Source: Flavobacteriales bacterium (GTDB lineage: Bacteria > Bacteroidota > Bacteroidia > Flavobacteriales > CAJXXR01). From it: DNA of 64,000 nt. Each line of letters starts with the position of its first letter. Position 1 is the stretch's first letter. The DNA is taken from the NCBI GenBank assembly GCA_025210805.1, contig JAOAQX010000028.1:124001-188000 (forward strand), in the 5' to 3' direction. The notes under the pieces are model-generated. The model was not told the DNA's origin, searched no databases, and worked only from the letters and a program-made list of their open reading frames with translations. This document shows positions 13,249-35,919 of the stretch, piece by piece. Position numbers and translations under genes: made by a program.

Positions 13249-15978
13249 TCAATCAATAATGTCATTTTCTTTATCAAAACGATCTTTATCTGATGGGTAA
13301 AAACCGAATTTCGATTTGAAAACCTTCGCAAAATAATGAGAACTAGGGATTCCGACTTTATTACGCACTTCATAAATTTTGAAATTTCCGCTTTTCAATA
13401 ATGCGTATGCATTTCTCATTCTAATCTCTTGAATAAGCTTATTAGGAGTTAATCCACTTTCTTTTTTGATGAGTCTTCTTAGTTGACTTTCACTATAGAA
13501 CATTTCAACAGCTAAATCTTTTACCGTGAATTCATGATTGCTGATGTTTTTTTGAATGATTCTGATGGTTCTGTCGAGAATGGAATCATCATTTGAAGGT
13601 TCCAAATTTGAAAGGTTAAAACTTAAGCTTTTTGCTCTTGAATTCGTGAAATTTTTAATAACATTTTCTATTCGGATTAACAATTCCCGTTTATCAAAAG
13701 GTTTAGTCATATAGTCTTGAACTCCAAATTTGTATGCTTGTATCCTTAACTCCATATTTGTAGAACCAGAAACAATAATAAGTGGAGTTTGAATTCTATT
13801 TGACACCACATATTTTTGTACCTCCATTCCTGAATTGTCAGGTAATTTTAGATCACAAAGAATACAATCAAATTCATTTTTCTGAATTTGGAGTATTGCC
13901 TCTTCTACTGTGGTACAGATGTTTAATTGATAATTATACATAATTAATTGATAAAATTCAATCAGATCAATATTGTCTTCAATAATTAGAATTTTATTCT
14001 TTGTAGCTTTATTCACTATTTTTGGAGTATCATTCTGTAGATTATTAAAGATCATATTGTGATTCTCGTTTTTGTGTTGGCTTGTTTCTAGAGGTAGTTC
14101 AATGATACATTCAACACCTTCTTGTGTGTTATAAATATCTATTTTCCCATCAATCTCAAGAATTATTTTTCTAGTCAAATATAGACCCAACCCTTGTGAG
14201 GTATCACTTGTTTTAGCACCTTTAAAATTCTTTTGGAATACTTTTTTTAAGTCTTCTTTAGCTATATTTTTTCCATGATTTTTAACAATAAACTGAGTTT
14301 TTTCCTTAGAGACATTGATGTTTACTAAAATTTGATTTTCATTAAAACTATGCTTAATTGCATTGGAAATAATATTAGAAAGTACAATGTTTAATTTTTG
14401 CGGAGTGAAATTTATTTGAGTGAAATCTGAGCAATTACTGGTGAAAATTATTTCAATATTTTTTGAGGATAAAGCAGTTTGGTAGCCATTAATAATTCTC
14501 TTGAAAAAATCATTGATTGGTATGAATTCAAATTTTTCTGAATGCTCCTTAAATCCGTCTTTGGAATAGGAAATTAAGTTATCAATATTTTCTTTTAGTC
14601 TTTCTACTGATTTTTTTGTTATTTGATTACTGCTTTTTGAATTTTGATTATTGAAAGAATTTGTTATTAATGTAATCGGTGTTTTTATTTCATGTGTTAG
14701 AACTTCCAAAAACTCATTTTTTAATACATTTTTCTTCGTTTCTTTTGCAAGTTTGACCTGTATTTCTTCAAATTCCTTCTTTTGAACTTTGTGCCATCGG
14801 ACGATAATTACAACAAGTGAAATAAGTATTAATGTTGCGATAAGTAATGTATATTTATTGGTTTTCGATTGAGCTTTCTTATTATTTATTTTTTCTTTTT
14901 CATAATTGATGATTTTATTACTTAAGGCATCTTCTTTATTTTTTTCTAAGAGTTTCGTGTACTTGGAAAGATAGTATAAGGCAGAATCGGAATTTAAATC
15001 TAAATGAATATAATACTGAAGTCTATAACTGTAGATTGGATTTTCAAATAAAGGTAATTTATTATAAACTTCACGATATTTTGAGTATAAGTTGAGGGCT
15101 TCTTTATCAGCACCTGTGTCAAAATAATACGTTAAAAGTAGTAGGAAAAATTGCTCTTTAAATTTGGGGTGTATTTTTTGATTTTCAAGAATAAATTTTA
15201 TTTCTGTTGGAGCATGATGTTTTAATGAATCATTAGAGAGTAAGTGATTCATTTTTATTAAATTACTTTTATGAAAGAAATAGGCTCCAGATGGGAGATC
15301 GACATAGAACAAAGAAGAATCTAATGAACTTATTTTCTCTATTAGATCATTAGCTAGCATGCTTTTATTGACAAAAAAATGGTAATGATGAAGTTTTTTT
15401 AACTGAGTTTTGTGCGCGGCTCTTAATTGTTCTTGCTTAAGAAAATTTTCTTTGGCTGAAACAGTATCTTGTTGTGAAATAAAATACATTGTTAAGTTAT
15501 TGATTGCCACATATTCCTTAATTGGACTGTTTAATTCTTGAGCATATTTTATTACTTTTTGAAAGTACATTTTCGCCACAGCAGGTTCACTGACAAAACT
15601 GATGGCAAGTAAGTTACTGAAACCATACTTATAATACTTGTGCTCCAAACTGTCTGCAAGTTTTAAACCTTTGAATAATGTTTCACGTTGTACTTCTAGG
15701 GGTTTGCTGTGAACTTTGGAAGCTTTTCCTTTTAAATAATAATAGCAAATTTTTGATTCTATAGCTATTTTAGTGTTGTCAATTAATTCTTTGCTGAGAT
15801 TTATATAGTAATAGGTAGAATCATTGTTTGAATATAAATGCTTTTCAATATTGGAGAGGTAATAGTCAATTTCCTTCTTTTTTGAATACTTATAAGATGT
15901 ATTATATTCTTGTGCATTGAGGTTGAGAAAAAGTGCTGCCGTAAGAATAATTGCGAGTATGTATTTAGAGTTTTTCAT
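13249..15978 (-). CDS. Hybrid sensor histidine kinase / response regulator / AraC-type activator
   Basis: A 909-residue one-protein signalling system. A signal peptide (residues 1-22) leads a helical TPR-like periplasmic domain (about 30-365) and one membrane helix (376-394). The kinase core has His429 in LTHEIKTP, Asn539 in NAIKH and the GLGLYLTRK G-box. A receiver domain (662-775) has Asp709 and Lys759; an AraC-type helix-turn-helix ends the protein (about 800-905). This order matches Bacteroidota hybrid two-component systems, but the sensor is TPR-like rather than the Reg_prop/YYY propeller type of sugar-sensing members. It is divergent from the secreted protein gene at 16257, an obvious candidate target. 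Confidence 0.92.
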   Translation of the reverse strand: MKNSKYILAIILTAALFLNLNAQEYNTSYKYSKKKEIDYYLSNIEKHLYSNNDSTYYYINLSKELIDNTKIAIESKICYYYLKGKASKVHSKPLEVQRETLFKGLKLADSLEHKYYKYGFSNLLAISFVSEPAVAKMYFQKVIKYAQELNSPIKEYVAINNLTMYFISQQDTVSAKENFLKQEQLRAAHKTQLKKLHHYHFFVNKSMLANDLIEKISSLDSSLFYVDLPSGAYFFHKSNLIKMNHLLSNDSLKHHAPTEIKFILENQKIHPKFKEQFFLLLLTYYFDTGADKEALNLYSKYREVYNKLPLFENPIYSYRLQYYIHLDLNSDSALYYLSKYTKLLEKNKEDALSNKIINYEKEKINNKKAQSKTNKYTLLIATLILISLVVIIVRWHKVQKKEFEEIQVKLAKETKKNVLKNEFLEVLTHEIKTPITLITNSFNNQNSKSSNQITKKSVERLKENIDNLISYSKDGFKEHSEKFEFIPINDFFKRIINGYQTALSSKNIEIIFTSNCSDFTQINFTPQKLNIVLSNIISNAIKHSFNENQILVNINVSKEKTQFIVKNHGKNIAKEDLKKVFQKNFKGAKTSDTSQGLGLYLTRKIILEIDGKIDIYNTQEGVECIIELPLETSQHKNENHNMIFNNLQNDTPKIVNKATKNKILIIEDNIDLIEFYQLIMYNYQLNICTTVEEAILQIQKNEFDCILCDLKLPDNSGMEVQKYVVSNRIQTPLIIVSGSTNMELRIQAYKFGVQDYMTKPFDKRELLIRIENVIKNFTNSRAKSLSFNLSNLEPSNDDSILDRTIRIIQKNISNHEFTVKDLAVEMFYSESQLRRLIKKESGLTPNKLIQEIRMRNAYALLKSGNFKIYEVRNKVGIPSSHYFAKVFKSKFGFYPSDKDRFDKENDIID

Positions 15979-18004: not shown

Positions 18005-18681
18005 CTCATTCTATGTTCGTTATAGTATTTATCGATGATATCAACTACTTCATCAGGATCATCGGTAATATGTACTAGGTCAAGATCGCTTTCGCTGATA
18101 TTCTTTTCTTTGAGCATCACATTTTTAATCCATTCCCAAAGTCCTTTCCAGTATTCTGTTCCCACTAATACAATTGGGTAGGTACGGATTTTATCGGTTT
18201 GAATTAAAGTGATTGCTTCAAATAATTCATCCAAAGTACCAAAACCTCCAGGCATTACAACGAATGCTTGAGAATATTTCATAAACACTACTTTTCTTAC
18301 GAAGAAGTAATCAAACTTAATGTCTTTGTCGATATCGATATATGGGTTGCTGTGTTGTTCAAAAGGCAAATCGATATTTAAACCTACTGAAGGTCCTTCT
18401 CCTATAGAAGCCCCTTTGTTTCCTGCTTCCATGATTCCTGGACCACCACCTGTAATAACACCATATCCTTTTTGGGTAATCTTGTAGGCGATATCTGTGG
18501 TAAGTTTATAATAGGGATGTTCTGGTTTTGTTCTTGCTGAACCAAATATAGAAACACAAGGTCCTATTTGAGCCATTTTTTCGAATCCATTGACGAATTC
18601 CCCCATGACTTTAAAAATCTGCCATGAATCTTGTGTTTTTATTTCGTTCCAGTCTTTTCTTGCTGATTGTTCGTTTGTCAT
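17992..18681 (-). CDS. LOG family protein (cytokinin riboside monophosphate phosphoribohydrolase-like)
   Basis: A 229-residue Rossmann protein of the TIGR00730/LOG family, often misnamed lysine decarboxylase. GGGPGIMEAGNKGA and MPGGFGTLDELFE are the two nucleotide-binding and catalytic signatures. Members cleave N6-substituted AMP or related nucleotides to base and ribose phosphate; the bacterial substrate here is unknown. The start overlaps the stop of the CapD-like gene by 4 bases, so it is the last gene of that transcript. Its link to polysaccharide synthesis is unclear. Confidence 0.88.
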   Translation of the reverse strand: MTNEQSARKDWNEIKTQDSWQIFKVMGEFVNGFEKMAQIGPCVSIFGSARTKPEHPYYKLTTDIAYKITQKGYGVITGGGPGIMEAGNKGASIGEGPSVGLNIDLPFEQHSNPYIDIDKDIKFDYFFVRKVVFMKYSQAFVVMPGGFGTLDELFEAITLIQTDKIRTYPIVLVGTEYWKGLWEWIKNVMLKEKNISESDLDLVHITDDPDEVVDIIDKYYNEHRMRPNF

Positions 18682-20594
18682 AATTCTGTTCTTTGATTGT
18701 CTAGTGACTGATAAACGGAATTTTTGGATTTAAATTCTGGAATAAGCAATTTTAATTGCTCTACCAAAGCCATATCTTCCTGTTTAAGAATCAAGTCTTT
18801 TAATATAGTAATATTTTCATGAAGCCAAATATCATTTACCTGAAGTACTTTAGCAATCATGATTTTTTTATGATAAGTAGGAATGGTGTTTTCCTTATCA
18901 TTTAAGAGTTCTTCGTAGAGTTTTTCTCCTGGTCTGAGTCCTATTTCTTTGATGTCAATTTCATCGGGATAACTATACCCTGAGAGTTGGATCATTCTAA
19001 TGGCAAGGTCGTAAATTTTTACAGATTTTCCCATATCGAAAATCAAAATCTGACCATCTTCACCCATGCAACCTGCCTCAAGGACGAGTTGACAAGCTTC
19101 GGGAATGGTCATAAAGAACCTAGTGACATCTTTATGAGTTACAGTTAGTGGGCCTCCTTTTTCTAATTGTTTTTTAAATAAAGGAATGACTGATCCGTTA
19201 GATCCAAGAACATTTCCAAAACGTGTGGTAACAAAAGAGGTGGTTCCGTTGTCTTTTAGGGAAGTCACATATTTTTCTGCCAATCTTTTTGTGGCACCCA
19301 TTACATTGGTAGGATTTACCGCTTTGTCTGTAGAAATCATTACAAATTTCTTTACATTATTCAGGATCGATAAATCGGCAAGTATTTTAGTTCCAAAAAC
19401 ATTTACTTTTATAGCCTCATAAGGGTTTGCTTCCATTAATGGAACGTGTTTGTATGCGGCTGCATGAAACACAATGTCTGGTTTGTATCTGGAGAATATA
19501 TTTTGAATTCTTAGTTTATCACGGATATCGGCAACTAAAGTTTCAAAAGCCTCAAATCCTCCTTGAACAAGATCTTGTTGAATTTCATATAAAGGAGATT
19601 CTCCGATGTCTAGAAGAATGACTTTTTTGGGCTTATAAAGTAATAATTGTCTTGCTATTTCACTTCCAATTGATCCAGCACCACCAGAGACGATAATTAC
19701 TTTATCTTGATACTCTTTTTGAACTTTTGGATTGTCAATTTGTATCGGTGGTCTATTGAGTAAATCTTCAATTTTTAGTTTTTGAATCTGTTTTGACTCA
19801 AATTGATTGTTTGTCCATGTACTTACAGAAGGCACCTTGGTGATTTTGATTCCAAATTCTACCACTTCATCAACAATTTCTCTCATTCTGGGAGCCGGAA
19901 GATTAGAAATTGCAATAACTATTTCATCAATATCATGATCTATAATGTATTGTTTGTCAATAGTTGGTGAATGTAAGACTTTGATTCCATGTAATACTTT
20001 TCCTGCGATTTTAGGATCATCATCCACAAATGCTACAATTTTTACTTGTTGAGCAGTATCATTTGTTAATACTTGATGTGTTAAACAACCTGTATAACCC
20101 GCACCAAAAATCAAAACATTTTTTGCTGTAATATCTCCCTTTTTTACTCGATAATAGATGACCTTATAGAGGAATCTAAAAGCAGAAAGAAGGATGATAT
20201 TTAATATGATATGGATGGAAACTACTGAGGTTGGGATTATTAATCCTGTCCAAAATTCTGTTCTTCTTTTGAAAAAAACAAAAGCGAAAAGGATGATTGC
20301 GGTAAGCAATTGAGCTTGTACAATTCTGAGTAAATCCCGCTCACTTGTGTGGCGAATAACTCCTCTGTGAGCTCCTGCTAAAATAATACTTAAAGCACTT
20401 GCTAATATCGCGACTGGAATCCCTTGTAGAAGCTCTAAGTAATTAATTTCTAATGAGAAGTTGAATCTTAGGAAATAAGCGAAAACAAAAGATTGAAATA
20501 CAATAAACAAATCCACCAATAGTATTATCCAATGAGAGATATAACTATTCGTGTTTCTAAGAACAAAAGATTTCAACTTTTGGTAACTATACAT
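18678..20594 (-). CDS. Membrane nucleotide-sugar 4,6-dehydratase (CapD/PglF/WbpM-like)
   Basis: A 638-residue protein with four N-terminal membrane helices (about residues 15-150), a first Rossmann-like domain (FGAGYTGCLTHQVL) and a C-terminal short-chain dehydrogenase domain with GGAGSIGSEIARQLL. The catalytic region reads STDKAVNPTNVMGATKR: Met sits where ordinary SDR enzymes have Tyr, as in the Ser-Met-Lys triad of WbpM/PglF. The family turns UDP-GlcNAc into UDP-4-keto-6-deoxy-GlcNAc, the precursor of QuiNAc, bacillosamine or FucNAc-type sugars. It has 167 bases upstream and may have its own promoter. Confidence 0.9.
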   Translation of the reverse strand: MYSYQKLKSFVLRNTNSYISHWIILLVDLFIVFQSFVFAYFLRFNFSLEINYLELLQGIPVAILASALSIILAGAHRGVIRHTSERDLLRIVQAQLLTAIILFAFVFFKRRTEFWTGLIIPTSVVSIHIILNIILLSAFRFLYKVIYYRVKKGDITAKNVLIFGAGYTGCLTHQVLTNDTAQQVKIVAFVDDDPKIAGKVLHGIKVLHSPTIDKQYIIDHDIDEIVIAISNLPAPRMREIVDEVVEFGIKITKVPSVSTWTNNQFESKQIQKLKIEDLLNRPPIQIDNPKVQKEYQDKVIIVSGGAGSIGSEIARQLLLYKPKKVILLDIGESPLYEIQQDLVQGGFEAFETLVADIRDKLRIQNIFSRYKPDIVFHAAAYKHVPLMEANPYEAIKVNVFGTKILADLSILNNVKKFVMISTDKAVNPTNVMGATKRLAEKYVTSLKDNGTTSFVTTRFGNVLGSNGSVIPLFKKQLEKGGPLTVTHKDVTRFFMTIPEACQLVLEAGCMGEDGQILIFDMGKSVKIYDLAIRMIQLSGYSYPDEIDIKEIGLRPGEKLYEELLNDKENTIPTYHKKIMIAKVLQVNDIWLHENITILKDLILKQEDMALVEQLKLLIPEFKSKNSVYQSLDNQRTEL

Positions 20595-20761: not shown

Positions 20762-21583
20762 TTATAACTCATGTTTTGTCTTAATAATTTTGAGGACATT
20801 TTCTTTAAGTTTTTGTTTTCTTTCTATTAATTTTTCAAGATTGTGGTTTTTTAAATCTTGCCAGAAAAGATGTATTTTCTCTACTTCCTCAGGCAAATTC
20901 ACATTGTCTAACAATTCTTCATAAGAGCTGGAGTATCCATGAAAATCTCGTGAAAGAATAACAGCAGAAGAATGTAGCCTTATATGTTCTGAGAGGATAA
21001 GTTCTGAGGGAAGCATTCCTTTGCCCAGCCGTGCGATTCCTCCAAAACCGAAAGGTATTTGAGCTTGATGAATTTTCTGACTAAGATATTCTACGATACC
21101 ACCACTGAGGAGTTCAAACATAAAGTCAAGTTCCATGGCCAAATGCAAGTCATTTAGTCCAATATGTATTTCGTCAATGCCTTCAATTTTTAGAATATCA
21201 TCTATGCGGGCAAGAGCCTGTGTTGTTTCTAGTAAGAGAATTGTTTTTACTCTTTTGTTTACAATTTTAAGGAAAGTAGCTACCTCATGGGGTGTCTTAA
21301 ACATGGGTAACATAATAATATCTGCTCCTGCTTGAATTACTTGGTCGATTTCTTTTTCACTGTCCTCGTGTATCGGATTGATTCTTACAAGTAATTCTGA
21401 GGTAGATATCGTCTGCCTAATAACTTTTACATCTTCTAAGCTGTGTTTGGATATTACAGTATTAAGATGACCTTGACGTTCATTTTTTCCCAAAATTTCA
21501 AGATCTACCATGATCCTATCTATTTGAGATTTTTCTGCTAATTGTGCCGTTTTTGGGCAATTAGTAATGAAAATTGTTTTCAT
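20762..21583 (-). CDS. HpcH/HpaI-type aldolase / citrate lyase beta-like protein
   Basis: A 273-residue (beta/alpha)8 protein of the HpcH/HpaI aldolase superfamily: RIMVDLEILGKNERQ, LLVRINPIHEDSEKEID, GADIIMLPMFKTP, LLLETTQAL and HIGLNDLHLAM follow the family order. Members cleave or form C-C bonds next to a pyruvate or acyl-CoA enolate using a divalent metal. The substrate cannot be read from sequence; it is a divergent member. It lies 4 bases from the aminotransferase gene upstream and ends the long wbp operon. It forms a trio with the next two genes. Confidence 0.75.
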   Translation of the reverse strand: MKTIFITNCPKTAQLAEKSQIDRIMVDLEILGKNERQGHLNTVISKHSLEDVKVIRQTISTSELLVRINPIHEDSEKEIDQVIQAGADIIMLPMFKTPHEVATFLKIVNKRVKTILLLETTQALARIDDILKIEGIDEIHIGLNDLHLAMELDFMFELLSGGIVEYLSQKIHQAQIPFGFGGIARLGKGMLPSELILSEHIRLHSSAVILSRDFHGYSSSYEELLDNVNLPEEVEKIHLFWQDLKNHNLEKLIERKQKLKENVLKIIKTKHEL

Positions 21584-21587
21584 AATT

Positions 21588-22505
21588 CTAGTAAACAGGG
21601 GTTAACCAATCAATTCTATCTAAGATTTTTCCACGAGCAATATCAAAATAATGATTTTTGATTTTTTCGGTTAATTTCCCTTCGAGCTGTTGGTTTATTT
21701 CATAACGATCAATAGAAAGAATAGGGACAATTTCAACAGCAGTTCCACATAAGAACAGCTCGTCGGCAGTGTATAATTCTGTTCTATTTACTTCTCGTTC
21801 TTCTACATGTAGATTAAGGTCCTCTTTCGCAATCTGTAATATTGTTTTACGAGTAATACTATCAAGTATAGAGGAGGTGGTAGAAGGAGTGATAAGTACA
21901 TCGTCTTTTACCATAAAGAGGCAAGAACCTGGACCTTCTGATACAAAACCTTGATTATTGAGAAAAATAGCAAAATCGTAATTATTTCTTTTAGCTTCTA
22001 GTTGTCCTGCACGGCTATTGATATAATTTGCTCCAACTTTTATTCTTGGCGAAACGGAATTATCATTAATTCTCTCCCAAGAGGAAACACAACAATGAAC
22101 ACCTGTTTTATTTTGATTGAGTAATCGGCCTTTTGGAATAGGTGCAATAAACATTTCAACAGGATCTGTACTAAACCAACTTCCAAAACCGTCTAGAAAA
22201 ACAGTCTGTCTAATTGCTATATCTTCTTGATAATCATTTGCGATAATAATGTCCTTACAACTTTGTTTTAAGAATTCGGTTGAGTATTTATCTTCAAATT
22301 TTATAAGCTTGATAGACTCTTTGAGTCTTTTTATATGTTCATCTAACCTGAATATATAAAGTTGTTCTTGCTCTTCATTCCAGTAAGCTCTATGACCTTC
22401 AAATACATTTGCTCCAAATTGACTGGTAGGTGCAAGTACATTAATCGTAGCTTGACTTAGTGGTACAATTTGGTTTTTAAACCATATTTTTCTTTCTTCT
22501 TTCAT
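21588..22505 (-). CDS. Class IV PLP-dependent aminotransferase (branched-chain type)
   Basis: A 305-residue fold-type IV aminotransferase. The Lys that holds PLP lies in IKVGANYINS; FVSEGPGSCLFMV and TPSTTSSILDSITR are the phosphate and carboxylate-binding loops. ANVFEGHRAY near the N-terminus resembles IlvE and D-amino-acid transaminases. I took ATG 22505 (MKEERKIWF), 4 bases after the decarboxylase stop; the longer frame from 22580 would overlap that gene. In this setting it is more likely a dedicated enzyme of the polysaccharide locus than the housekeeping IlvE, but that is inference. Confidence 0.82.
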   Translation of the reverse strand: MKEERKIWFKNQIVPLSQATINVLAPTSQFGANVFEGHRAYWNEEQEQLYIFRLDEHIKRLKESIKLIKFEDKYSTEFLKQSCKDIIIANDYQEDIAIRQTVFLDGFGSWFSTDPVEMFIAPIPKGRLLNQNKTGVHCCVSSWERINDNSVSPRIKVGANYINSRAGQLEAKRNNYDFAIFLNNQGFVSEGPGSCLFMVKDDVLITPSTTSSILDSITRKTILQIAKEDLNLHVEEREVNRTELYTADELFLCGTAVEIVPILSIDRYEINQQLEGKLTEKIKNHYFDIARGKILDRIDWLTPVY

Positions 22506-22509
22506 GTAT

Positions 22510-23745
22510 TTAAAAATTGAATGTCGTAAAAATATCTTCCATAGTCTCCTTCCTTTTGATTTCTGAGTAACCATGTTCATTTATGTCTATAATTGAAACA
22601 TTAGGAAGGATAAACGGAGGCTTGAAAACTACTGAGTAAGAGCCTACATTTGAGAAAGCCAAATAATCTCCAATGGTCATTGGTCCGCTATATCCTCTAA
22701 AAAGGTAATCAGATTCTATACAGGTGTATCCAGAAATATTTAGGTTTTCAAATGATGGAGTATCAGAATCATCAGATAAAACTTTCATTGGCATATTAAC
22801 GGTTGAGCTAATAACTCCAATATTAAATCTACTTCCAGAAGTCATGGCAATATCCTGTCCTCTCACTTGTTTGATATCAATAACCTTTGCAACAAATTGC
22901 ATGGTATTAGCAACTAAAGCACTTCCTGGCTCTAAAAACAGTTTGGGTTTTTTATCGTCTTCAATATGAGTAAAGTGTTCGCCAATTCTTGTGGCAATTT
23001 CCTTAGCATATTCTTGATAGCTTGGTACATTAGCATTGAATTGTTTTTTAAGATCTTCATGCATTTTTCCAAAATACCCACCACCTATATCGATAAACTC
23101 TGGAGGATTTGTTGGGAACACCTTTTGAACTAGGTCTAACATACTTTCAACTCTTGGGATATAGGAGGCTAAATCTCTGTTTGGGAAATGACAGTGTAAA
23201 CCTTTAAGTTTAATGTTTTGATGATTTTTTAATTCTTCAAATATTTGAAAAAATTTAGCTTGAGTAATATCAAAACCAAAACGAGAAATTAGATCACTAT
23301 TAATTTCAAAATTACAACGAAGACCTATATTGAGAGTGCTTTTAGGTTGTTCTTGAGCAATCATAAAGAGGTTTTCAAGCTCTTTATAGGAATCAATATT
23401 TACTAAACTTCCAGAAAGAAGGAATTTTTCTAAGGCTTCTTTATTTTTATAAGGTCCATTTACGATAATACGATTTTTTTGTACGCCTACCTTGAGGGCT
23501 AAATCGTATTCCATTTCAGAGACAACTTCAGCATATCCGCCTCTTTGATCTACAATTTTGCAAATTTTGGGGGTATAATTCGTTTTATAGGAGTAACCAA
23601 TATGGGTATTTGGATAATATTTCCTGAATGCTCCTAAGAAATCATCATAATTTTTTTTAAAAACATCGGAATGGAACAAATAGAAGGAATCCCCAAATTT
23701 TTGTTCTAATTCCTTGGCAAGTTGAAAATCGAAATTATTGGTCAT
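22510..23745 (-). CDS. Fold-type III PLP decarboxylase (LysA-like)
   Basis: A 411-residue alanine-racemase-fold decarboxylase. The PLP Lys is in IGYSYKTNYTP near residue 54; GLHCHFPNRD, FIDIGGGYFG and LEPGSALVA are phosphate- and PLP-binding motifs, and YTCIESDYL parallels the CESxD substrate motif of diaminopimelate decarboxylase. Relatives act on diaminopimelate, ornithine/lysine, carboxynorspermidine or carrier-bound glutamate, so the substrate is open. Its start overlaps the sugar transferase gene by 11 bases, placing it inside the polysaccharide operon. It is unlikely to be the housekeeping lysA because of that context. Confidence 0.82.
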   Translation of the reverse strand: MTNNFDFQLAKELEQKFGDSFYLFHSDVFKKNYDDFLGAFRKYYPNTHIGYSYKTNYTPKICKIVDQRGGYAEVVSEMEYDLALKVGVQKNRIIVNGPYKNKEALEKFLLSGSLVNIDSYKELENLFMIAQEQPKSTLNIGLRCNFEINSDLISRFGFDITQAKFFQIFEELKNHQNIKLKGLHCHFPNRDLASYIPRVESMLDLVQKVFPTNPPEFIDIGGGYFGKMHEDLKKQFNANVPSYQEYAKEIATRIGEHFTHIEDDKKPKLFLEPGSALVANTMQFVAKVIDIKQVRGQDIAMTSGSRFNIGVISSTVNMPMKVLSDDSDTPSFENLNISGYTCIESDYLFRGYSGPMTIGDYLAFSNVGSYSVVFKPPFILPNVSIIDINEHGYSEIKRKETMEDIFTTFNF

Positions 23746-24382
23746 TTTTTAATCTTTTTCTGTCTTTTTCAGCATTTTCAGCGGTTTCGTATCCGCCGTC
23801 GTTTTTAATTACTTTAATAATGGTAATTAAAATAATTTTGATATCTAAAAGAACTCCCCACTTGTAGAAGTCTTCTATATATTCATTATCAAAGATAATC
23901 TTTTCATCCCAAGAAATCTCATTTCTACCATTAACTTGGGCATATCCTGTAACACCTGGTTTTACACGAAATCGAGCTTTTAAGTCTCCTGTAAAATCCT
24001 TATAATCTCCAAGTTCATAATTGACAGGTGGTCTAGGTCCTACAAATGACATATCGCCTTTTAGAATATTGAATAGTTGAGGAATTTCATCTAAACTGGT
24101 ATTTCTGATAAAATTCCCCACTTTTGTTACCCTTGGGTCATTTTCAAAGTTAAAAAGCCCTGTACCTTTTTTTTCAGCTCCCACTACCATAGAGCGAAAT
24201 TTATAGATATAGTATTCTTTTCCGTTTCTCCCTATTCTGAGTTGTTTAAAGATAATAGGACCTTTGGAATCAACCTTTACGGCAATGGCTACCAAAATAA
24301 GTACTGGTAGGAAAACAATGATACCAAAAATGGAACAGATGATATCAAAAACCCTTTTGGAAAAGTCATATAATTTTTTCAT
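23735..24382 (-). CDS. Small phosphoglycosyl transferase (PglC/WcaJ C-terminal type)
   Basis: A 215-residue enzyme that moves a sugar phosphate from a UDP-sugar to undecaprenyl phosphate, starting a repeat unit on the inner membrane. One hydrophobic re-entrant helix (residues about 12-34) is followed by FKQLRIGRNGKEYYIYKFRSM, LDEIPQLFNIL and SFVGPRPP, the standard core. The N-terminal multi-helix domain of WcaJ-size proteins is absent. With a UDP-4-keto-6-deoxy-GlcNAc dehydratase in the locus, a QuiNAc/FucNAc-like or HexNAc first sugar is plausible. It starts 2 bases after the GT4 gene. Confidence 0.92.
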   Translation of the reverse strand: MKKLYDFSKRVFDIICSIFGIIVFLPVLILVAIAVKVDSKGPIIFKQLRIGRNGKEYYIYKFRSMVVGAEKKGTGLFNFENDPRVTKVGNFIRNTSLDEIPQLFNILKGDMSFVGPRPPVNYELGDYKDFTGDLKARFRVKPGVTGYAQVNGRNEISWDEKIIFDNEYIEDFYKWGVLLDIKIILITIIKVIKNDGGYETAENAEKDRKRLKNDQ

Positions 24383-24384
24383 AT

Positions 24385-25629
24385 TTAGCCTTTATAGTTT
24401 TTTGCAATTTTTTCTAGGTATTGAATCATTTCTCCATAGACTTTTTCTGCGGAAAACTGCTTTTTAAAAAGGGAATAAGCATTTTTAGACATTTCTTGTT
24501 GTAAATCAAAATTGTTGTACAATCTAGAGACGTATTCAGTGAGCTTTTCACTAGAATTGTCGTAAACGAATCCACAGTTATTTTGATTAAATAAAGAGCC
24601 TGAAACTCCGCCTATACTTGTCAGAATAGGTAGCTTTCCTGCTAAATACTCAATGTTTTTATTGGTTAAATTATGCAGGAAATTATTTTTTTCAACGTAG
24701 CAAGAAAGTCCAATTTTAGCATTTTCCATGAGTAGAATAATTTCTTCCTCTGTTAACCAACCAGGGAAAATAATATTATCGATGTTTTTAGTTCTTTCCT
24801 CAAGATTTTCTAAGTTGTCTCCTTTTCCGCAAAGAACAAATTGTAGGTCCAAAGCTGTTAACTTTTTAGCAGCTTCGATAACAGGTTCAAAATCAAATTG
24901 TGCACCAATAGTTCCGAAAAAACAAACAATGAACTGATTAAAATGGATTCCTCTTTTTTTAAGTGCATCCTTTATTTGGATTTTCTTTTCGTTTCCAATG
25001 TTTTTTTGAGGGTATCCAAAAGCAAATGCTTGATCAAATTCTTTTTGTTTCCTCCCCGATTTTTTAACTCCAAATTTCACAAATTCATCCGTGACACCTG
25101 ATATGGCAAAAGTGTTTTTAAATATTTTTTTTGCTTTTTGTTGAAGTGGATAAAAGGCAAGTTTGGAAATTTTTGTAAGTGCATTTGGGAGAACTTCCTC
25201 AAAAATATCGGGCCACATATCACGAACATCTATAACAACGGGAACTTGGTTGTTTTGTCCATATTTTACTGCTTGATGAGCAAGGTCTAAAGTTGGATAC
25301 GCACAGAGAATGACATCAGGTTTTTCTTTATTTTGAGAAATTTTGGTAAATTTTCCTCCTACCTGAACATGATTAATAATCCTTTTGACAGAAATATTCT
25401 TGTTGTACCCAGTTTTGGGATGTAGGAATATCATATTTACTCCCCATTCATTCTGTATTTCAGTATCTTGATTAAATAAATACTTTTTGTGCTGATGATC
25501 ATAAGCTGTAGTCCACCAAGTAACTTGATGATTAGCTTGTACCAACATTTTTGAGAGAATACCAATTCTGTGAGGTCTTTCTCCAAATTGTTCTAAGGGC
25601 TCTCCAGACATGATTAACCAGATATTCAT
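24385..25629 (-). CDS. Glycosyltransferase family 4 (WbuB-like)
   Basis: A 414-residue GT-B enzyme. The N-terminus (IWLIMSGEPLEQFGERPHR) and VVIDVRDMWPDIF are typical of the WbuB-like GT4 group, which often transfers N-acetylated or acetamidino deoxysugars. The C-terminal donor domain has FFGTIGAQFDFEPVIEAA, LCGKGDN and the late NIEYLAGKLPIL region. It is likely cytoplasmic and membrane-associated. It sits between another GT4 and the initiating transferase in the same operon. Donor and acceptor are not known. Confidence 0.87.
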   Translation of the reverse strand: MNIWLIMSGEPLEQFGERPHRIGILSKMLVQANHQVTWWTTAYDHQHKKYLFNQDTEIQNEWGVNMIFLHPKTGYNKNISVKRIINHVQVGGKFTKISQNKEKPDVILCAYPTLDLAHQAVKYGQNNQVPVVIDVRDMWPDIFEEVLPNALTKISKLAFYPLQQKAKKIFKNTFAISGVTDEFVKFGVKKSGRKQKEFDQAFAFGYPQKNIGNEKKIQIKDALKKRGIHFNQFIVCFFGTIGAQFDFEPVIEAAKKLTALDLQFVLCGKGDNLENLEERTKNIDNIIFPGWLTEEEIILLMENAKIGLSCYVEKNNFLHNLTNKNIEYLAGKLPILTSIGGVSGSLFNQNNCGFVYDNSSEKLTEYVSRLYNNFDLQQEMSKNAYSLFKKQFSAEKVYGEMIQYLEKIAKNYKG

Positions 25630-25636
25630 GTTATGA

Positions 25637-26761
25637 CTATTTAGATTGTAAGGTTTGGTAAATATTTACTAGTTTTTTCTCTTCTTGAGTCCAGTTATAT
25701 TTGTTTTTTACAGCTTGTTGCCCTCTTTTACCCATTTCTCGAGCAATTTCATCATTTTCAATTAAGTAGTTTATTGCTTCGGCAATGGCATTTGAATTGT
25801 AAGGATCAACAGCTAACCCACAGTTGTTTTCTTCAACAACAATTTGCTTCCAAAGTGGAATATCTGAAGTAATAACAGGTATTCCACTAGCCATATATTC
25901 AAACATTTTAACCGGTAAAGCATCTAAATAGTTAATGATAGGGTGTAGAGTTACTAGGCCAGCTTTTGAATTTTTAAAAACGACATTTATTTGTTCTCTA
26001 TTCAAAAAGCCTAACTCATTCACATTTTGCCAGCCTTTATAACCTTTTACTTCAAGATGAACATCTTTTTGATCAGCAATGAACTTACCACCGAGGTTTA
26101 ATTTTGTATTTGGTGTGTATTCCATCGCTTTAACGATTTCTCTAATTCCACGAATAACCTCAATGGCACCTACATAACAAACTTCATTTTTTTTGTGTTC
26201 CCATGGTGTAGAGTTGGTTAGTTCTTTAATAATGGGAAAGTTGTTGATATCTAGGCTGTTTGTGTTTATTTTTTGAAATTTATTTTTAATATAGGGTGTG
26301 GCAGTAATCACAAAATCTAACTTAGAACAAACACGATTTTCGTAGAGCGATAAGCTCTTCGCTATAAGGGTTCTTACTGGTTTGTTGAGGTAAGGTTTGT
26401 ATAAAAACTGTTTAGGAACATCTTCATGAGAGTCAAATATTACCTTTTTCCCTTTCTTTTTTAGTTTAAGGGCATACGGAAGTAGCTCTGGATCATGAAT
26501 ATGATAAATTTCACAATCGAGCTCAAGTGCTTTTTTGTAAACTGCTTTTGTTGTTTTAAAAATTCTATTTACTCTTCCTTCTAGTTTTCCTACATCCACA
26601 AAAGAAACTCCTTCTTTTACTTCATCACCTAGACCATCAGCGACTATTAAGCTCACATCAAATCCATTTTTTGCTAGTGATTGACATTCTTTGATGAAAA
26701 TTCTTGTGTCATATCTTGGGTGTACGGAGGTCAAATGGCATACTTTTGTCTTCTTATCCAT
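25637..26761 (-). CDS. Glycosyltransferase family 4
   Basis: A 374-residue GT-B glycosyltransferase. [19 protein letters not shown] opens the acceptor domain, [18 protein letters not shown] and [12 protein letters not shown] follow, and the donor domain has [12 protein letters not shown] and [16 protein letters not shown] with the EX7E-type acidic residues. I used ATG 26761 ([10 protein letters not shown]), which overlaps the hisF2 stop by 8 bases; a start at 26773 adds four residues. It should add one sugar of the repeat unit; linkage unknown. Confidence 0.88.
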
Positions 26762-27533
26762 GTGAATGAGCAATTTTGTTTAGTTTGTTAATTTCCATTC
26801 GTGATGGATAATTGATTAAAACCCCATTGAGTTGTCCTTTATAAACAAAAAGACTCCCACAGGAAACGGCTTTTATAGTAGTTTGGCGAAAAAGTTCTTC
26901 GATATGCTCGATCTTTCCAACTCCTCCGGATGCTATAAGAGGTAAATTTGTAGATGATGCCATTTTATTTAAAAAATCGATATCCATACTATTCATCATA
27001 CCTTCATGATCTATGGATTGAATAACAATTTCTCCAGCACCATGGTCTTCGGCCATTTTGAGCGCTTCTTCTGGGCTCATGTTTATTTTTTCTTTCCCGT
27101 TCTTGATATAGACTTTTCTTCTCCCAAGCAAGTCTTTTTTATAATCAATGGTAACCAAAACACTTTGTGACCCAAAAGTATCAGCAGCATCGGTTATAAG
27201 TTGTTTGTTGTTGAAAAAATTTGTACTCAATGATATTTTTTCTACACCAGAATAAAAGATTCGTTTCATTTGGTCTACAGAGCTGACACCGCCAGCATAA
27301 CAAAGCGGCATAAAGCATTCACTGGCAACATCCTCAATCAAATCGAAATTTGGTGGACGATTATCTCGAGAGGCATCAATATCTACCAAAATAAGCTCAT
27401 CAACTTCTTTTTCATTAAAGATTTTAATGGCATTTATTGGGTCACCAATATAATTGGGCTTTTTGAATTTTTTGGTTTTATAAAGTCCGCCCTTGTGTAC
27501 TAACAAAGTGGGAATTAATCTAATTTCAACCAT
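26754..27533 (-). CDS. hisF2: HisF-like ammonia-using subunit for sugar acetamidino synthesis
   Basis: A 259-residue (beta/alpha)8 protein related to HisF. It is not the histidine enzyme: the catalytic Asp of the first strand is replaced ([15 protein letters not shown]), while the second, in [10 protein letters not shown], remains. This pattern and the order wbpG-hisH2-hisF2 match the Pseudomonas O5 and Escherichia wbuXYZ sets, in which HisH makes ammonia from glutamine and HisF passes it to WbpG. CYAGGV and [14 protein letters not shown] are the phosphate-binding loops. No other histidine genes are present. Confidence 0.88.
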
Positions 27534-27536
27534 GGT

Positions 27537-28169
27537 CTATAGTTCGCAGTAATTTTTTAATAATTGAAACCCGTATTTATGACTCTTTTCAGGATGAAAT
27601 TGAACACCAAATACATTTTCTTTGTGAATTGACGAATCAAAAGTGATTCCATATTTTGTTTTTGCCAAAGAGTTTTGTCTATTTTTTACATGTACATAAA
27701 AGGAGTGAACATAATAGTATCTGAAATCAGTTTGAATATCTTTAAAAAGTGGATTACTACCTTCCACTTCTCCAAAAGTATTCCACCCCATGTGAGGAAT
27801 TCTTAGGTTTTTGTCTTGCATTTCTTTACTTGGGAATTTTAGCACCTCTGCATCAATCCAGCCCAAGCCGGGTAAAGAGCCTTCGTCACTTCTATTGGTA
27901 AGCATTTGCATTCCAAGACAAATTCCTAAGATCGGTTTTTTATTTTCTAAAACTTGGTATTCCAATTCTTTAAAAAAATCTTGATTTTTGAGATTGCTAA
28001 TCCCTTTATCAAAAGCACCTACACCAGCAAGAATAAACCTAGTGGCTGTTTTGATATCTTCTATTTCTTTTGATATTATGGCTTGATAACCAATTTTTTT
28101 TATCATATTCCGAATAGAATTCATATTTCCTATTCCAATATCTAGAATGACTATTTTGTTGGACTCCAT
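27537..28169 (-). CDS. hisH2: HisH-like glutamine amidotransferase for sugar acetamidino synthesis
   Basis: A 210-residue class I glutaminase. The triad is complete: Cys84 in GICLGMQML, His192 and Glu194 in VQFHPEKSH. It should hydrolyse glutamine to glutamate and ammonia and channel the ammonia through the HisF-like partner. It ends 3 bases before hisF2 and starts 4 bases after wbpG, so the three are translated as a set. Sequence alone does not exclude a role in histidine synthesis, but the neighbours make that unlikely. Confidence 0.9.
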   Translation of the reverse strand: MESNKIVILDIGIGNMNSIRNMIKKIGYQAIISKEIEDIKTATRFILAGVGAFDKGISNLKNQDFFKELEYQVLENKKPILGICLGMQMLTNRSDEGSLPGLGWIDAEVLKFPSKEMQDKNLRIPHMGWNTFGEVEGSNPLFKDIQTDFRYYYVHSFYVHVKNRQNSLAKTKYGITFDSSIHKENVFGVQFHPEKSHKYGFQLLKNYCEL

Positions 28170-28173
28170 GAAT

Positions 28174-29304
28174 TTAGTATTTCGAAAGATTTAATTTGAA
28201 TGTTTTGGAAATAAAATTTTGCAACTTTTTTAAACGTTGGTATCTACTTTGAAAATTCTTAAAATCTGAATAATTATGTTTAGGCATATTCATGATTTCT
28301 TCAAATTCAGCCTTGGAAACACCTAATTTTTTCGCAATGTATTCTTTGTCTTCTTCAAGCTCTTTTGGGTTGTATAACTCATTGTTCATTTCTTTTAGAG
28401 CATCTTCTCTCGTCAATTGACCAGAGAGAATTAAACTTGAAAGATGAGGTTTTCGTTTATCGTATCCATAGTACTCCACTAACCAATGATTTTGGAAAAA
28501 TTTCGTAAAAATAGATTCACCATGTTTACGTGCATATTTTTTATATCCAATTTTTTCTTCCAGTTCTTTAAGTGCTTCTTCTTTATCATAAGGCATAAAG
28601 TTTAGCGGCCTTAAAACTTTCATCTTTTTGATAAAAGGGTAGTAGAAATAAAGTTTAAAGAAACTTATTGTTTTGTACTTTTTAAGTTTTAATGTTCCAA
28701 ATCTTTTATGAATATCTTTTAGATTAATAGCATCCATTGCAGACCAATGCCAAGCACTTGGGAATACGCATTCTGTGGCTAAATTTCCACCACTCATAAT
28801 GTATTGCACATTGTGTTTTATGGCAAAGTGATAAAGCGAGGCAAAAAAAGCATGATCTTGTGGGACATCTTGATTCGCTATTCCTGATTTTAAATAGGCA
28901 AGTTGGAGATCTTTCATTTCTTCCCAATCTATCACGATAGTGTGTAAATCCCAGCCACAATAATCTACAATTCGCTCAATGTTTTGAACAGCTAGCTCAC
29001 TGTTCCAGCCTCCATCAACATGTACTACTAATGGACGTAGTCCATATTCTTTTATTTTTAATGCCAAATAGGAGCTATCAATTCCTCCACTAAGACCAAG
29101 AATACAGTCATAGCTTTTGGAAGCTTTAAGTGCTTTGATTTCGTTAAACTGCTTTTCCAGTTTCTGTTCTCCTTCTTTATTAGGATACCAATCTTTTTTT
29201 TGTACATTTTCAAATAATTGACAATGGCTACAAATTCCTTCACTATTAAAAGAAATAGCGGGGTCTGTGGTATCCATTAGGCATTTTTTACAAGTTTGAG
29301 ACAT
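28174..29304 (-). CDS. wbpG: N-acetyl sugar amidotransferase (WbpG/WbuX-like)
   Basis: A 376-residue ATP-pyrophosphatase-type enzyme. A zinc-ribbon-like start (CKKCLMDTTDPAI then CSHC, with four Cys) precedes the PP-loop LGLSGGIDSSYLA near residues 64-76. The family activates the acetamido carbonyl of a nucleotide sugar with ATP so that ammonia from HisH/HisF can convert it to an acetamidino group. PseA/LegA-type enzymes on nonulosonic acids are relatives, but no nonulosonate genes are here, whereas a diamino-uronic acid pathway is. It starts 2 bases after wzy. Confidence 0.92.
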   Translation of the reverse strand: MSQTCKKCLMDTTDPAISFNSEGICSHCQLFENVQKKDWYPNKEGEQKLEKQFNEIKALKASKSYDCILGLSGGIDSSYLALKIKEYGLRPLVVHVDGGWNSELAVQNIERIVDYCGWDLHTIVIDWEEMKDLQLAYLKSGIANQDVPQDHAFFASLYHFAIKHNVQYIMSGGNLATECVFPSAWHWSAMDAINLKDIHKRFGTLKLKKYKTISFFKLYFYYPFIKKMKVLRPLNFMPYDKEEALKELEEKIGYKKYARKHGESIFTKFFQNHWLVEYYGYDKRKPHLSSLILSGQLTREDALKEMNNELYNPKELEEDKEYIAKKLGVSKAEFEEIMNMPKHNYSDFKNFQSRYQRLKKLQNFISKTFKLNLSKY

Positions 29305-29306
29305 AT

Positions 29307-30566
29307 TTAAATGGGTTTAGCCTTTTTGAAGTTGGTAAATATTGTAAGGGCAAATATAAATCCAATGCCCGAACTTAACAATACTGTAGTGTAAAATTGT
29401 TCTAATAAAAGAACACCAAATATGGTTGATAAGAATATTAGTTCAGGTGTTTTAAAACGAATATAAAGTTTATCTATATAGAAGAAATATAGACTGATTA
29501 AAAATATAGATATAATATATCCAACAATTCCGTTTTTGAGAAGTGCATAAATAAATGTATTTGAGTTAGCATTCATTTTAGAATCTGGAAAGTACTTTTC
29601 ACCTATATAAAATGCAATATCTCTTGAATCTTTAATATCTACACCAAAAAGTAATTCTAAGTAGTCACTAGAAGTAAATGTATCATAATAAAACATTTGT
29701 AATTGACTTCCTCCAGCAAAAAGTCTGCGAATAATTAGCTGATTGATAAAATGATTGTCAAAAATTAAATATTCTAAAAAGCTGAACACAAATATTCCAA
29801 GAATAAGGATACTAAAATAAAACGGCATTTTTATAATCTTTTTATTTACAACCCAAAAGGCAAGGAGATAAAAGAAAATCATTTGAAAAAAAGTGTGTTT
29901 ATACCCAAATACCCAGTAGGAAAAAACAACAATAATGAAACCTAATAATAATAAATACTTTTGCTTTCGAACGTAACCAACAAAAATCAGTAGAGGCATT
30001 ATTCCGTTAATCATAATATTCGTGAAATAACTAACTAACGAACCTGCTGTGAAAACACTTCTGGCTTCAAGACGTCTTGCATAGATGTCTGTAAATGAAA
30101 AGCTACCGAATGATGCAGATAAAAGTGTGCCAATAGTCAAAGTAAATAAAGAAAACAGAATTAAATATTTGTATGTTTGACTTAGCTTGAAGTAAGTTTT
30201 ATTGAAAATACGTAAAGGAAAATGTTTAATAGATTTAATAGATAGAATTGGCAATATTAAGATAAATGAAAGCTGAAGAGATTCTATTGAATTAAAAAGT
30301 AGTGTGTCAAACATCGAATTAAAAATCGTATGAGATAAAAAGACGATGAATAGATAAAGTGTTATAAAGATATCTGAGGGATATTTCATTTTTTGCGGAA
30401 CCAAAAATACAATAAGCAACAGGTTTATGATTCGATACATTATAGTGACGTTCATTTCATCATAACCCTCGTTGGCATTTAGTTCTATAAGTGTATCTGC
30501 AATATAATAATCACTAATTAGAAGTATGATTATGAGTGCTAGGAAAATTTTTATCTTAAACATCAT
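29307..30566 (-). CDS. wzy: O-antigen/exopolysaccharide polymerase, Wzy-type
   Basis: A 419-residue hydrophobic protein with about ten to twelve membrane helices and one larger extramembrane loop (about residues 285-335). It has no other domain. Sequence is poorly conserved in this family, as is normal for Wzy. The position between wzx and the glycosyltransferases, a 4-base overlap with wzx, and size and topology support a polymerase that joins repeat units on the periplasmic side. A ligase is possible but less likely in this spot. Confidence 0.75.
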   Translation of the reverse strand: MMFKIKIFLALIIILLISDYYIADTLIELNANEGYDEMNVTIMYRIINLLLIVFLVPQKMKYPSDIFITLYLFIVFLSHTIFNSMFDTLLFNSIESLQLSFILILPILSIKSIKHFPLRIFNKTYFKLSQTYKYLILFSLFTLTIGTLLSASFGSFSFTDIYARRLEARSVFTAGSLVSYFTNIMINGIMPLLIFVGYVRKQKYLLLLGFIIVVFSYWVFGYKHTFFQMIFFYLLAFWVVNKKIIKMPFYFSILILGIFVFSFLEYLIFDNHFINQLIIRRLFAGGSQLQMFYYDTFTSSDYLELLFGVDIKDSRDIAFYIGEKYFPDSKMNANSNTFIYALLKNGIVGYIISIFLISLYFFYIDKLYIRFKTPELIFLSTIFGVLLLEQFYTTVLLSSGIGFIFALTIFTNFKKAKPI

Positions 30567-31816
30567 GCCTTAGAAAATTTATAAGCAAGAGAAAATTCGA
30601 AGATATATTTGATAATATAGACAGAAATATAGCCAACGACAATATGTGTATAGGATAGATTATTTTGATGAATAAAATAGAAAACAGTGTATAGTGAAAT
30701 ACAAAGTACGATTTGTATGATAAGATCATATTTCTGTTTTTCGGCAAAAATAATGGTGGAACTGATAGGGGATGTTGCAATTTGAAAAATAAACATCAAA
30801 GAAAGTAATTGAACCATTTCTCCTGCAATCACCCATTCTTTACCAAAGAAGAAACTAAAAATAAATGGCGAAAAAAAGAATAGTATCAAGATAGGTATAA
30901 TACTGAACAATAAAAGTTTTTTAGAGGTTTGAACCAAAAGATCTCTACAGCTACCAGTTTCTAACAACATTTTAGATGCTTTTTCTCTATAAACATCTCC
31001 AAAGGCTACTGTAATTACACCAATGGGAGCGGCAATAATTTTGAAAGCCGCAGAAAATTGACCTGAAATATCCAAAGAATAATAGGCTGTTAAGAAAAAA
31101 ACGGGAGCAAAAACAGAGAGTTTTTCGACTACTCCAGCAAATGCCTGAAATTTTGGGAAATCAATATATCTTGAAGCAACAGCCTTTAGGGAATAAGGGT
31201 TTACTTTAAAGTTAGATAATTTAACATACTTTGATGCCCAAATAATTAATGCAGAGAATCCAATGATTTCAGCAAGAGCTAATCCAAAAAGCCAGTCGGT
31301 TAAATAACCAATTATAAATGAAAAAAGCACAAAAGAAATTGCTCGAAAGAAACGAGCCATAGAAATTGCCTTGTAGTGTTGGTAGTAATTTAAATATAAT
31401 CTAAATATGCTTTCATAAGCTAAGATAATCCCTCCAAATGGTACCAAGAATAGAATTCCTTTTGAATAGCCGTAGGATTCGGCAAACCAATCACCAAAAA
31501 CGATTATCAAAATAAAGGTTATTAGGAAAGAAAAGGCTGACAAAATAAAAGACAATTTAAAAATGTCTTGTCTTTTTTCTTCTTCTTTCTCTACAAAAAA
31601 GGCATATTCATACTTGAAGGAGTAGATTACTCCTAAAATATTAGCAATTCCTAAAAACGAATTATAAAACCCAAATTGCTCAGGAGAAAAGACTCTGAGC
31701 AAAATTGGAGAAAATATCAGTAAAACTAGTTGAGAAATTACGGTTCCTATGGAAAGCGTTAATGCATTCCTAATATAACTAGAATTTTGTATTGTTTCTT
31801 TTATTTTTTGTATCAT
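30563..31816 (-). CDS. wzx: Polysaccharide repeat-unit flippase, Wzx-type
   Basis: A 417-residue membrane protein with about twelve helices. The start region (IRNALTLSIGTVISQLVLLIFSPILLRVFSPEQFGFY) is characteristic of the MVF/Wzx superfamily, as is AFGDVYREKASKML in the second half. It should flip the undecaprenyl-linked repeat unit across the inner membrane for Wzy. The stop overlaps the wzy start by 4 bases. Its presence means a Wzx/Wzy-dependent rather than ABC-transporter pathway. Confidence 0.88.
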   Translation of the reverse strand: MIQKIKETIQNSSYIRNALTLSIGTVISQLVLLIFSPILLRVFSPEQFGFYNSFLGIANILGVIYSFKYEYAFFVEKEEEKRQDIFKLSFILSAFSFLITFILIIVFGDWFAESYGYSKGILFLVPFGGIILAYESIFRLYLNYYQHYKAISMARFFRAISFVLFSFIIGYLTDWLFGLALAEIIGFSALIIWASKYVKLSNFKVNPYSLKAVASRYIDFPKFQAFAGVVEKLSVFAPVFFLTAYYSLDISGQFSAAFKIIAAPIGVITVAFGDVYREKASKMLLETGSCRDLLVQTSKKLLLFSIIPILILFFFSPFIFSFFFGKEWVIAGEMVQLLSLMFIFQIATSPISSTIIFAEKQKYDLIIQIVLCISLYTVFYFIHQNNLSYTHIVVGYISVYIIKYIFEFSLAYKFSKA

Positions 31817-31877: not shown

Positions 31878-33916
<2,039 letters not shown>

Positions 33917-33920
33917 CGTT

Positions 33921-34496
33921 TTATTTTATTCTTGTTACAGTTTGATCCTTCAGTTGGTATTGTTGACCGCTTTCTGGGCAAATTGCCTGCTGGTTGTCAT
34001 CAAATTCTAAGCGATGTCCGTATTCGCTTACCCATCCTATGTGTTTTGCAGGGTTTCCAACCACTAGGGCATAGGGTGGAATATTTTTGGTAACCACTGC
34101 TCCTGCACCTATTAATGCAAATCTCCCAATAGTGTTTCCGCAGATAATAGTTGCATTTGCCCCAATTGAAGCTCCTTTTTCTACAAGAGTAGTTGCATAA
34201 TTACCTCTTCTGTTTACAGCACTTCTTGGGTTTATGATATTGGTAAAAACCATTGAAGGACCTAAAAAAACATCGTCTTCACAGATAACTCCAGAATATA
34301 CCGAAACATTGTTTTGAATTTTAACATTTCGTCCAAGCTTTACGTCTGGCGAAACGACAACATTTTGCCCGATATTACATTTTTCACCAATATCACAATT
34401 GGGCATTATATGAGAAAAATGCCATATTTTGGTATCTTTCCCTATCGTACAGCCTTCGTCTATTACGGCTGTTTCGTGAGCAAAATAGTTTTTCAT
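33921..34496 (-). CDS. wbpD: UDP-GlcNAc3NA 3-N-acetyltransferase (WbpD-like)
   Basis: A 191-residue left-handed beta-helix acetyltransferase with many hexapeptide repeats (for example IGEKCNIGQNVVVSPDVKLG, IGANATIICGNTIG). The tail VVGNPAKHIGWVSEYGHRL is found in WbpD and its relatives. It acetylates the 3-amino group made by WbpE with acetyl-CoA, completing UDP-GlcNAc3NAcA. It probably works as a trimer. It lies 94 bases after ugd, the largest gap in the upstream half of the operon. Confidence 0.92.
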   Translation of the reverse strand: MKNYFAHETAVIDEGCTIGKDTKIWHFSHIMPNCDIGEKCNIGQNVVVSPDVKLGRNVKIQNNVSVYSGVICEDDVFLGPSMVFTNIINPRSAVNRRGNYATTLVEKGASIGANATIICGNTIGRFALIGAGAVVTKNIPPYALVVGNPAKHIGWVSEYGHRLEFDDNQQAICPESGQQYQLKDQTVTRIK

Positions 34497-34590
34497 ATAG
34501 TAACAAAATTAGTTTAACAAATATCTTTTTAAAAGATATTTTTTGTTAAGTGAAAAAAGAAAGTAATGAGAATTGAAAAACAAAAAAAAT

Positions 34591-35913: not shown

Positions 35914-35919
35914 GCTTTA

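Follow-up and report, generated by a model that had tools for sequence, protein, structure and literature searches.

What do three enzymes of amino- and keto-acid chemistry do in the middle of a polysaccharide cluster? The question is raised by a 64-kb stretch of DNA from a Flavobacteriales bacterium (contig JAOAQX010000028.1, positions 124,001 to 188,000), referred to below as the window, in which Pfam and curated family searches of the encoded proteins place a polysaccharide cluster running from 37209 down to 17992. It contains a trio encoding a LysA-like decarboxylase, an IlvE-type aminotransferase and an HpcH-type aldolase (below, IlvE and HpcH). A sequence-only reading had placed the trio, with 4-base gaps, behind an initiating transferase gene overlapping it by 11 bases, and these coordinates and families were confirmed. 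All genes of the trio, the transferase and the cluster lie on the minus strand; coordinates are those of the window. The genes central to the question are:

23735-24382, minus strand: PglC/EpsL-type initiating phosphoglycosyl transferase (PGT), 215 amino acids (PF02397)
22510-23745, minus strand: LysA-like pyridoxal phosphate-dependent decarboxylase, 411 amino acids (ornithine/diaminopimelate/arginine decarboxylase family, E=7e-27)
21588-22505, minus strand: IlvE-type class IV aminotransferase, 305 amino acids (PF01063, Aminotran_4, E=2e-49)
20762-21583, minus strand: HpcH-type class II aldolase, 273 amino acids (PF03328, HpcH_HpaI, E=2e-12)
18678-20594, minus strand: WbpM/CapD-type membrane UDP-N-acetylglucosamine (UDP-GlcNAc) 4,6-dehydratase, 638 amino acids (PF02719, E=6e-116)

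The transferase and decarboxylase genes share 11 bases, and gaps of 4 bases separate decarboxylase from IlvE and IlvE from HpcH. The true start of IlvE is at 22505; a 330-amino-acid open reading frame reaching 22580 begins at an earlier ATG within the decarboxylase gene.

On balance, we favour the view that the trio represents a widespread, undescribed class of pathways, in which a pyruvate aldolase branches a 4-keto nucleotide sugar, interchangeable enzymes tailor the branch and matching PglC-type transferases accept the result, the window system making an aminoethyl sugar. The WbpM-type dehydratase would first provide UDP-4-keto-6-deoxy-GlcNAc. HpcH, acting with a metal, would then join the enolate of pyruvate to the ketone at C4. 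The tertiary alcohol so formed would bear a CH2-CO-COOH branch, whose 2'-keto group would be transaminated by IlvE and whose carboxylate would be removed by the decarboxylase, leaving a 4-C-(2-aminoethyl) branch. Finally, the PglC-type enzyme would start the repeat unit by transferring the branched sugar-1-phosphate to undecaprenyl phosphate. Aldol branching of the initiating sugar by HpcH seems to us likely from the gene and family evidence; from it we infer that pyruvate is the donor and the 4-keto sugar the acceptor, and also the order in which IlvE and the decarboxylase act and the aminoethyl product. As to the exact product, we lean only slightly towards 4-C-(2-aminoethyl)-2-acetamido-2,6-dideoxyhexose, which to our knowledge occurs in no described polysaccharide. 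A literature search on these gene combinations returned no description of such a system.

HpcH bears the features of class II (HpcH/HpaI) aldolases: the PF03328 domain, the Glu and Asp expected to bind the metal and the Arg expected to bind pyruvate in a TIM barrel, and a fold match to HpaI. Its residues R67, E119 and D145 are invariant across 78 relatives and, judging by alignment and the HpaI literature, presumably correspond to the pyruvate/metal site of HpaI. The predicted fold (predicted local distance difference test score 95) is closest to the pyruvate aldolases HpaI/YfaU, with a template modelling (TM) score of about 0.6.

An indication of what HpcH might produce comes from its neighbours in other genomes. 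A one-genome-per-species scan gave 400 stretches with HpcH relatives, and since the best 80 were taken, the sample leans to the window's own version of HpcH; with loci labelled phage, plasmid or Bacteroidota added, it comprised 90 loci, two of which (L008 and L009) are near-copies. In 78 of the 90 the HpcH gene has a PglC-type transferase gene no more than 4 kb away, and some of the remaining loci are contig ends. Three partner sets recur: HpcH with IlvE (type A, 26 loci, 24 of them also with the decarboxylase), with a D-2-hydroxyacid dehydrogenase (type B, 30 loci) and with AsnB, an asparagine-synthase-type amidotransferase (type C, 18 loci; the AsnB that was tested scores above the cut-off for asparagine synthase). 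They never occur together in one locus (Fisher exclusion p = 3e-6, 1e-3 and 4e-4, uncorrected for relatedness). Five further gammaproteobacterial loci, outside the 90, comprise four of type C and one with an aminotransferase and NeuD. HpcH is the constant part of the three systems and, because transamination, reduction and amidation of a carboxylate all act on 2-keto acids, it may be read as the producer of one. The partner sets would then be alternative fates of a single 2-keto acid, so that in other bacteria reduction (by the dehydrogenase) or amidation (by AsnB) replaces the steps predicted for IlvE and the decarboxylase.

The search for co-occurrence advised by the sequence-only reading found the trio beside polysaccharide genes in unrelated bacteria; at least six phyla have it next to a PglC-type transferase. 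Type A is present in Bacteroidota, Bacillota, Pseudomonadota, Thermodesulfobacteriota, Cloacimonetes, Actinomycetota and Fibrobacter, with varying gene order and tight spacing; the window order (PGT, decarboxylase, IlvE, HpcH) recurs in L010 and L058. The decarboxylase is missing from the type-A loci L024 and L029, and in L029 a GNAT acetyltransferase gene adjoins that of IlvE. Two kinds of fusion were seen, a single transferase (PglC)-HpcH protein in L023 and HpcH-decarboxylase proteins in five loci (L030, L033, L034, L049 and L055). As HpcH has for its constant partner the transferase responsible for loading the first sugar, and can even be fused to it, branching would take place on the sugar nucleotide itself, and with the branch built there directly no ligase would be needed. 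That no ligase gene is recognisable, as the sequence-only reading had remarked, holds for all genes of the window.

The transferase may be specific for the finished branched sugar, as its linkage, its fusion and its phylogeny suggest. Trees of transferase and HpcH were compared for the same 65 loci; these were quick trees, in which the contrast counts more than the exact numbers. Three changes of type account for the transferase tree and 11 for the HpcH tree, against a mean of about 30 after shuffling. Eighteen of the 20 type-A transferases, from several phyla and including that of the window, fall into one set (SH-like approximate likelihood ratio test 95), and all type-C transferases lie on one side of a branch with support of 88. 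The transferase tree follows the partner set, and the HpcH tree does so much less, as would be expected of an HpcH whose first step is common to all types and a transferase that recognises the completed branch. Linked inheritance alone should act on both genes in the same way.

Enzymes of the WbpM family make UDP-4-keto-6-deoxy-GlcNAc, and that of the window is the proposed source of the 4-keto-6-deoxy-N-acetylhexosamine. A full-length WbpM homologue was present in 15 of 15 tested genomes without a clear copy in the locus, which is weak evidence, WbpM being common. The gene for another 4,6-dehydratase, LegB, adjoins the trio upstream in L028 and L037 and lies 0.6 kb downstream of it in L025. 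No sugar aminotransferase was found within 8 kb in these three loci, nor an EpsN-like one within 8 kb in 27 of the 30 type-B loci. HpcH is linked to 4,6-dehydratases and not to uronic acid genes. In the eps system of Bacillus subtilis, EpsC, EpsN and EpsM supply EpsL with UDP-N,N'-diacetylbacillosamine (UDP-diNAcBac; PMC10653937), and in Bacillus-type loci of our set HpcH and the dehydrogenase adjoin an EpsL-like transferase in place of EpsN/EpsM.

A sugar matching the type-C prediction is already known. The hypothesis was formed from the gene sets before the literature on this sugar was consulted. Shewanellose is 2-acetamido-2,6-dideoxy-4-C-(3'-carboxamide-2',2'-dihydroxypropyl)-D-galactose and accompanies an 8-epilegionaminic acid derivative in the polysaccharide of Shewanella putrefaciens A6 (PMC4052302, citing Shashkov et al. 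2002). It would be the hydrate of the amidated pyruvate adduct, 2-acetamido-2,6-dideoxy-4-C-(CH2-CO-CONH2)-hexose, predicted for the HpcH-AsnB loci; the two have in common a three-carbon branch at C4, a (hydrated) 2-keto group, a carboxyl-derived group and a 2-acetamido-2,6-dideoxyhexose. Several type-C loci unite WbpM, HpcH, PGT, AsnB and a NeuB-like gene. No biosynthetic pathway for shewanellose was found in the literature searched. The window cluster has no AsnB among its annotated genes and, as IlvE and the decarboxylase replace it there, would specify a variant with an aminoethyl branch rather than shewanellose.

The trio is dedicated to the polysaccharide and is not housekeeping, because the genome holds separate lysA and ilvE genes. 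The sequence-only reading had allowed for a housekeeping role if the window carried the cell's only homologues and relatives lacked the trio beside polysaccharide genes; elsewhere in the genome there are a lysA with 396.6 bits (cut-off 297.9) and an ilvE_II with 327.7 bits (cut-off 250). With 131 bits the window decarboxylase falls far short of the lysA cut-off; among solved proteins its best relative is the N-citrylornithine decarboxylase FslC. Window IlvE, with 277 bits, does exceed the general ilvE_I cut-off (245.6), which would suit ordinary lysA/ilvE-like genes landed in the cluster by chance; copies 44-62% identical to it stand beside HpcH in 26 loci. With the second lysA and ilvE_II, an association kept over many phyla and the fusions, we rejected such an origin as having hardly any probability. 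Catalytic residues are intact in the trio enzymes, and K54, H186, E272, C342, D346 and Y370 of the decarboxylase and K156 of IlvE are invariant among the relatives aligned.

Two other explanations have to be weighed. The trio could make a free small molecule, from aldol to keto acid, amino acid and amine, which is then attached to a sugar by an unrecognised ligase, for instance as a uronic acid amide; the sequence-only reading had leaned this way. The order aldolase, transaminase, decarboxylase suits a free amine equally, uronic acid genes are present in the window, and an HpcH-decarboxylase fusion with IlvE can stand apart from sugar genes. We nevertheless consider this unlikely, as no ligase was found in the window, an adenylation-type ligase homologue lies within 10 kb in 0 of the 90 loci (one query only), and both the constant, sometimes fused transferase partner and the transferase tree that follows the tailoring set would be left unexplained. 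Of that earlier proposal, dedicated modification of the polysaccharide is upheld by the association with polysaccharide genes in multiple phyla, whereas ligase-mediated attachment to a uronic acid was rejected in view of the PGT and 4,6-dehydratase links and the lack of a recurrent ligase; an amide linkage to uronic acid is probably wrong.

Less probable still is that HpcH resembles CitE or malyl-CoA lyase and yields a hydroxyacyl-CoA with which an amino sugar is N-acylated, IlvE and the decarboxylase altering the acyl precursor. CitE-like motifs near HpcH residues 27-37, a citramalyl-CoA lyase among the fold matches and the presence, in some loci, of acyltransferases of the LpxD, NeuD or GNAT type would fit it, but the nearest fold matches are pyruvate aldolases, no recurrent acyltransferase was found in types A-C, and IlvE and the 2-hydroxyacid dehydrogenase require a 2-keto acid, which a hydroxyacyl-CoA lacks. 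Siderophore-like N-citryl-amine synthesis, hinted at by similarity to FslC and SbnG, was also discarded: there is no siderophore synthetase among the cluster genes, and HpcH is no nearer to SbnG than to other aldolases.

Several observations weigh against branching of the initiating sugar by a pyruvate aldolase. HpcH is only 12-19% identical to characterised aldolases and, because it is remote from all of them, its use of pyruvate is suggested at the level of the family. In six loci (L050, L051, L064, L070, L085 and L121) HpcH is accompanied by a LegC-like aminotransferase and a NeuD-type acetyltransferase; if these act at C4, they would use the same ketone. Some loci have, besides HpcH and PGT, no tailoring enzyme that could be recognised. 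Four related gut Clostridia carry the HpcH-decarboxylase fusion and IlvE outside sugar clusters, with PglC-type genes elsewhere. No PglC-type transferase was found in the genome of L037, where the branched sugar may accordingly occupy a position other than the first. Linked transfer of genes could also yield matching trees.

The distribution of HpcH is patchy. Among 396 genomes of the window's order it occurs in one, the window's own, and in no other; it was found in 8 of 395 genomes of the phylum and in 6 of 395 of the order of Colwellia. A scan of viral contigs revealed no relatives. L006 (MT835705.1) is labelled 'Bacteriophage sp.', but it carries aminoacyl-tRNA synthetases, recA and polysaccharide genes, with no phage genes seen; we rejected it as a phage, and it looks like a mislabelled bacterial contig. 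The near-copies L008 and L009 are HpcH-AsnB-NeuB polysaccharide loci carried by plasmids from two separate genera of Rhodobacterales, which suggests recent plasmid-borne transfer. In one Bacteroidota genome (G429:C63:159918-160724; L095, L101) the HpcH match has one in-frame TGA in the reported frame. LpxD/NeuD-like acyltransferase genes lie downstream of the LegB-associated trios in L025 (near 15.0 kb) and L037 (7257-8183), and their products might acylate the predicted branch amine.

The remainder of the window cluster is composed of:

24385-26773, minus strand: two family 4 glycosyltransferases (PF00534)
26754-29304, minus strand: WbpG-HisH2-HisF2 acetamidino cassette (AglZ/HisF2 342 against a cut-off of 310 bits; WbuX 326.5 against 203.2 bits)
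29307-30566, minus strand: Wzy-like polymerase, assigned from place and length, with no Pfam hit
30563-31816, minus strand: Wzx flippase (PF01943)
31878-37209, minus strand: sugar nucleotide genes for a diamino uronic acid, namely WbpB, WbpE, WbpD and two UDP-sugar 6-dehydrogenases (GFO_IDH_MocA, DegT, hexapeptide and UDPG_MGDP_dh families)

The cluster has a single DegT gene (32819-33916), which is grouped with wbpB/wbpD and likely encodes a 3-amino enzyme, although it may still act at C4, as a UDP-diNAcBac pathway would require. The acetamidino-sugar cassette, complete in this Bacteroidota polysaccharide cluster, is proposed to serve a different sugar of the same repeat unit from that of the trio. 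The operon ends with a LOG-family gene (lysine_decarbox fold, TIGR00730; 17992-18681), which overlaps the WbpM gene by 4 bases and is unrelated to the trio decarboxylase. A terminator-like site stands at its end and none was found on the coding strand between HpcH and WbpM, while a promoter scan of the window performed no better than on shuffled sequence. Beside the cluster, 13249-15978 encodes a possible regulator, in which a histidine kinase ATPase domain is combined with a receiver domain and an AraC-type DNA-binding domain.

If correct, the proposal would supply a biosynthetic route for shewanellose, the branched sugar reported in 2002, and predict two further branched sugars, with amino and hydroxy-acid branches, in many bacteria. 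It would also add a new kind of C-C bond formation on nucleotide sugars, using all three pyruvate carbons and no thiamine cofactor, provide a natural collection of PglC-type transferases that differ in specificity, and correct such annotations as 'aldolase/citrate lyase family', 'diaminopimelate decarboxylase' and 'branched-chain aminotransferase' where these stand in polysaccharide loci.

YerE provides a precedent for branching a nucleotide sugar at its C4 ketone with carbon from pyruvate (PMC12247030, PMC4753412). Yersiniose formation by YerE resembles what we propose for HpcH, in that pyruvate-derived carbon is placed on the C4 ketone of a nucleotide sugar and then tailored. YerE, however, acts on CDP-4-keto-3,6-dideoxyglucose, depends on thiamine diphosphate, differs from HpcH in fold and cofactor, and decarboxylates pyruvate to add two carbons, whereas HpcH would add all three; no carboligase of the thiamine diphosphate-dependent kind is among the annotated window genes. 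HpaI and YfaU resemble HpcH in fold and in metal/pyruvate residues, but their acceptor is a small aldehyde and that predicted for HpcH a nucleotide-sugar ketone. FslC and BtrK are LysA-like decarboxylases, as the window enzyme is, and act on bulky substituted amino acids; they belong to siderophore and antibiotic pathways, the window enzyme to a polysaccharide. The diNAcBac systems EpsC-EpsN-EpsM-EpsL and PglF-E-D-C share their dehydratase and transferase families with the window, and it is the place of the aminotransferase (EpsN) and acetyltransferase (EpsM) of these systems that HpcH and its partners occupy.

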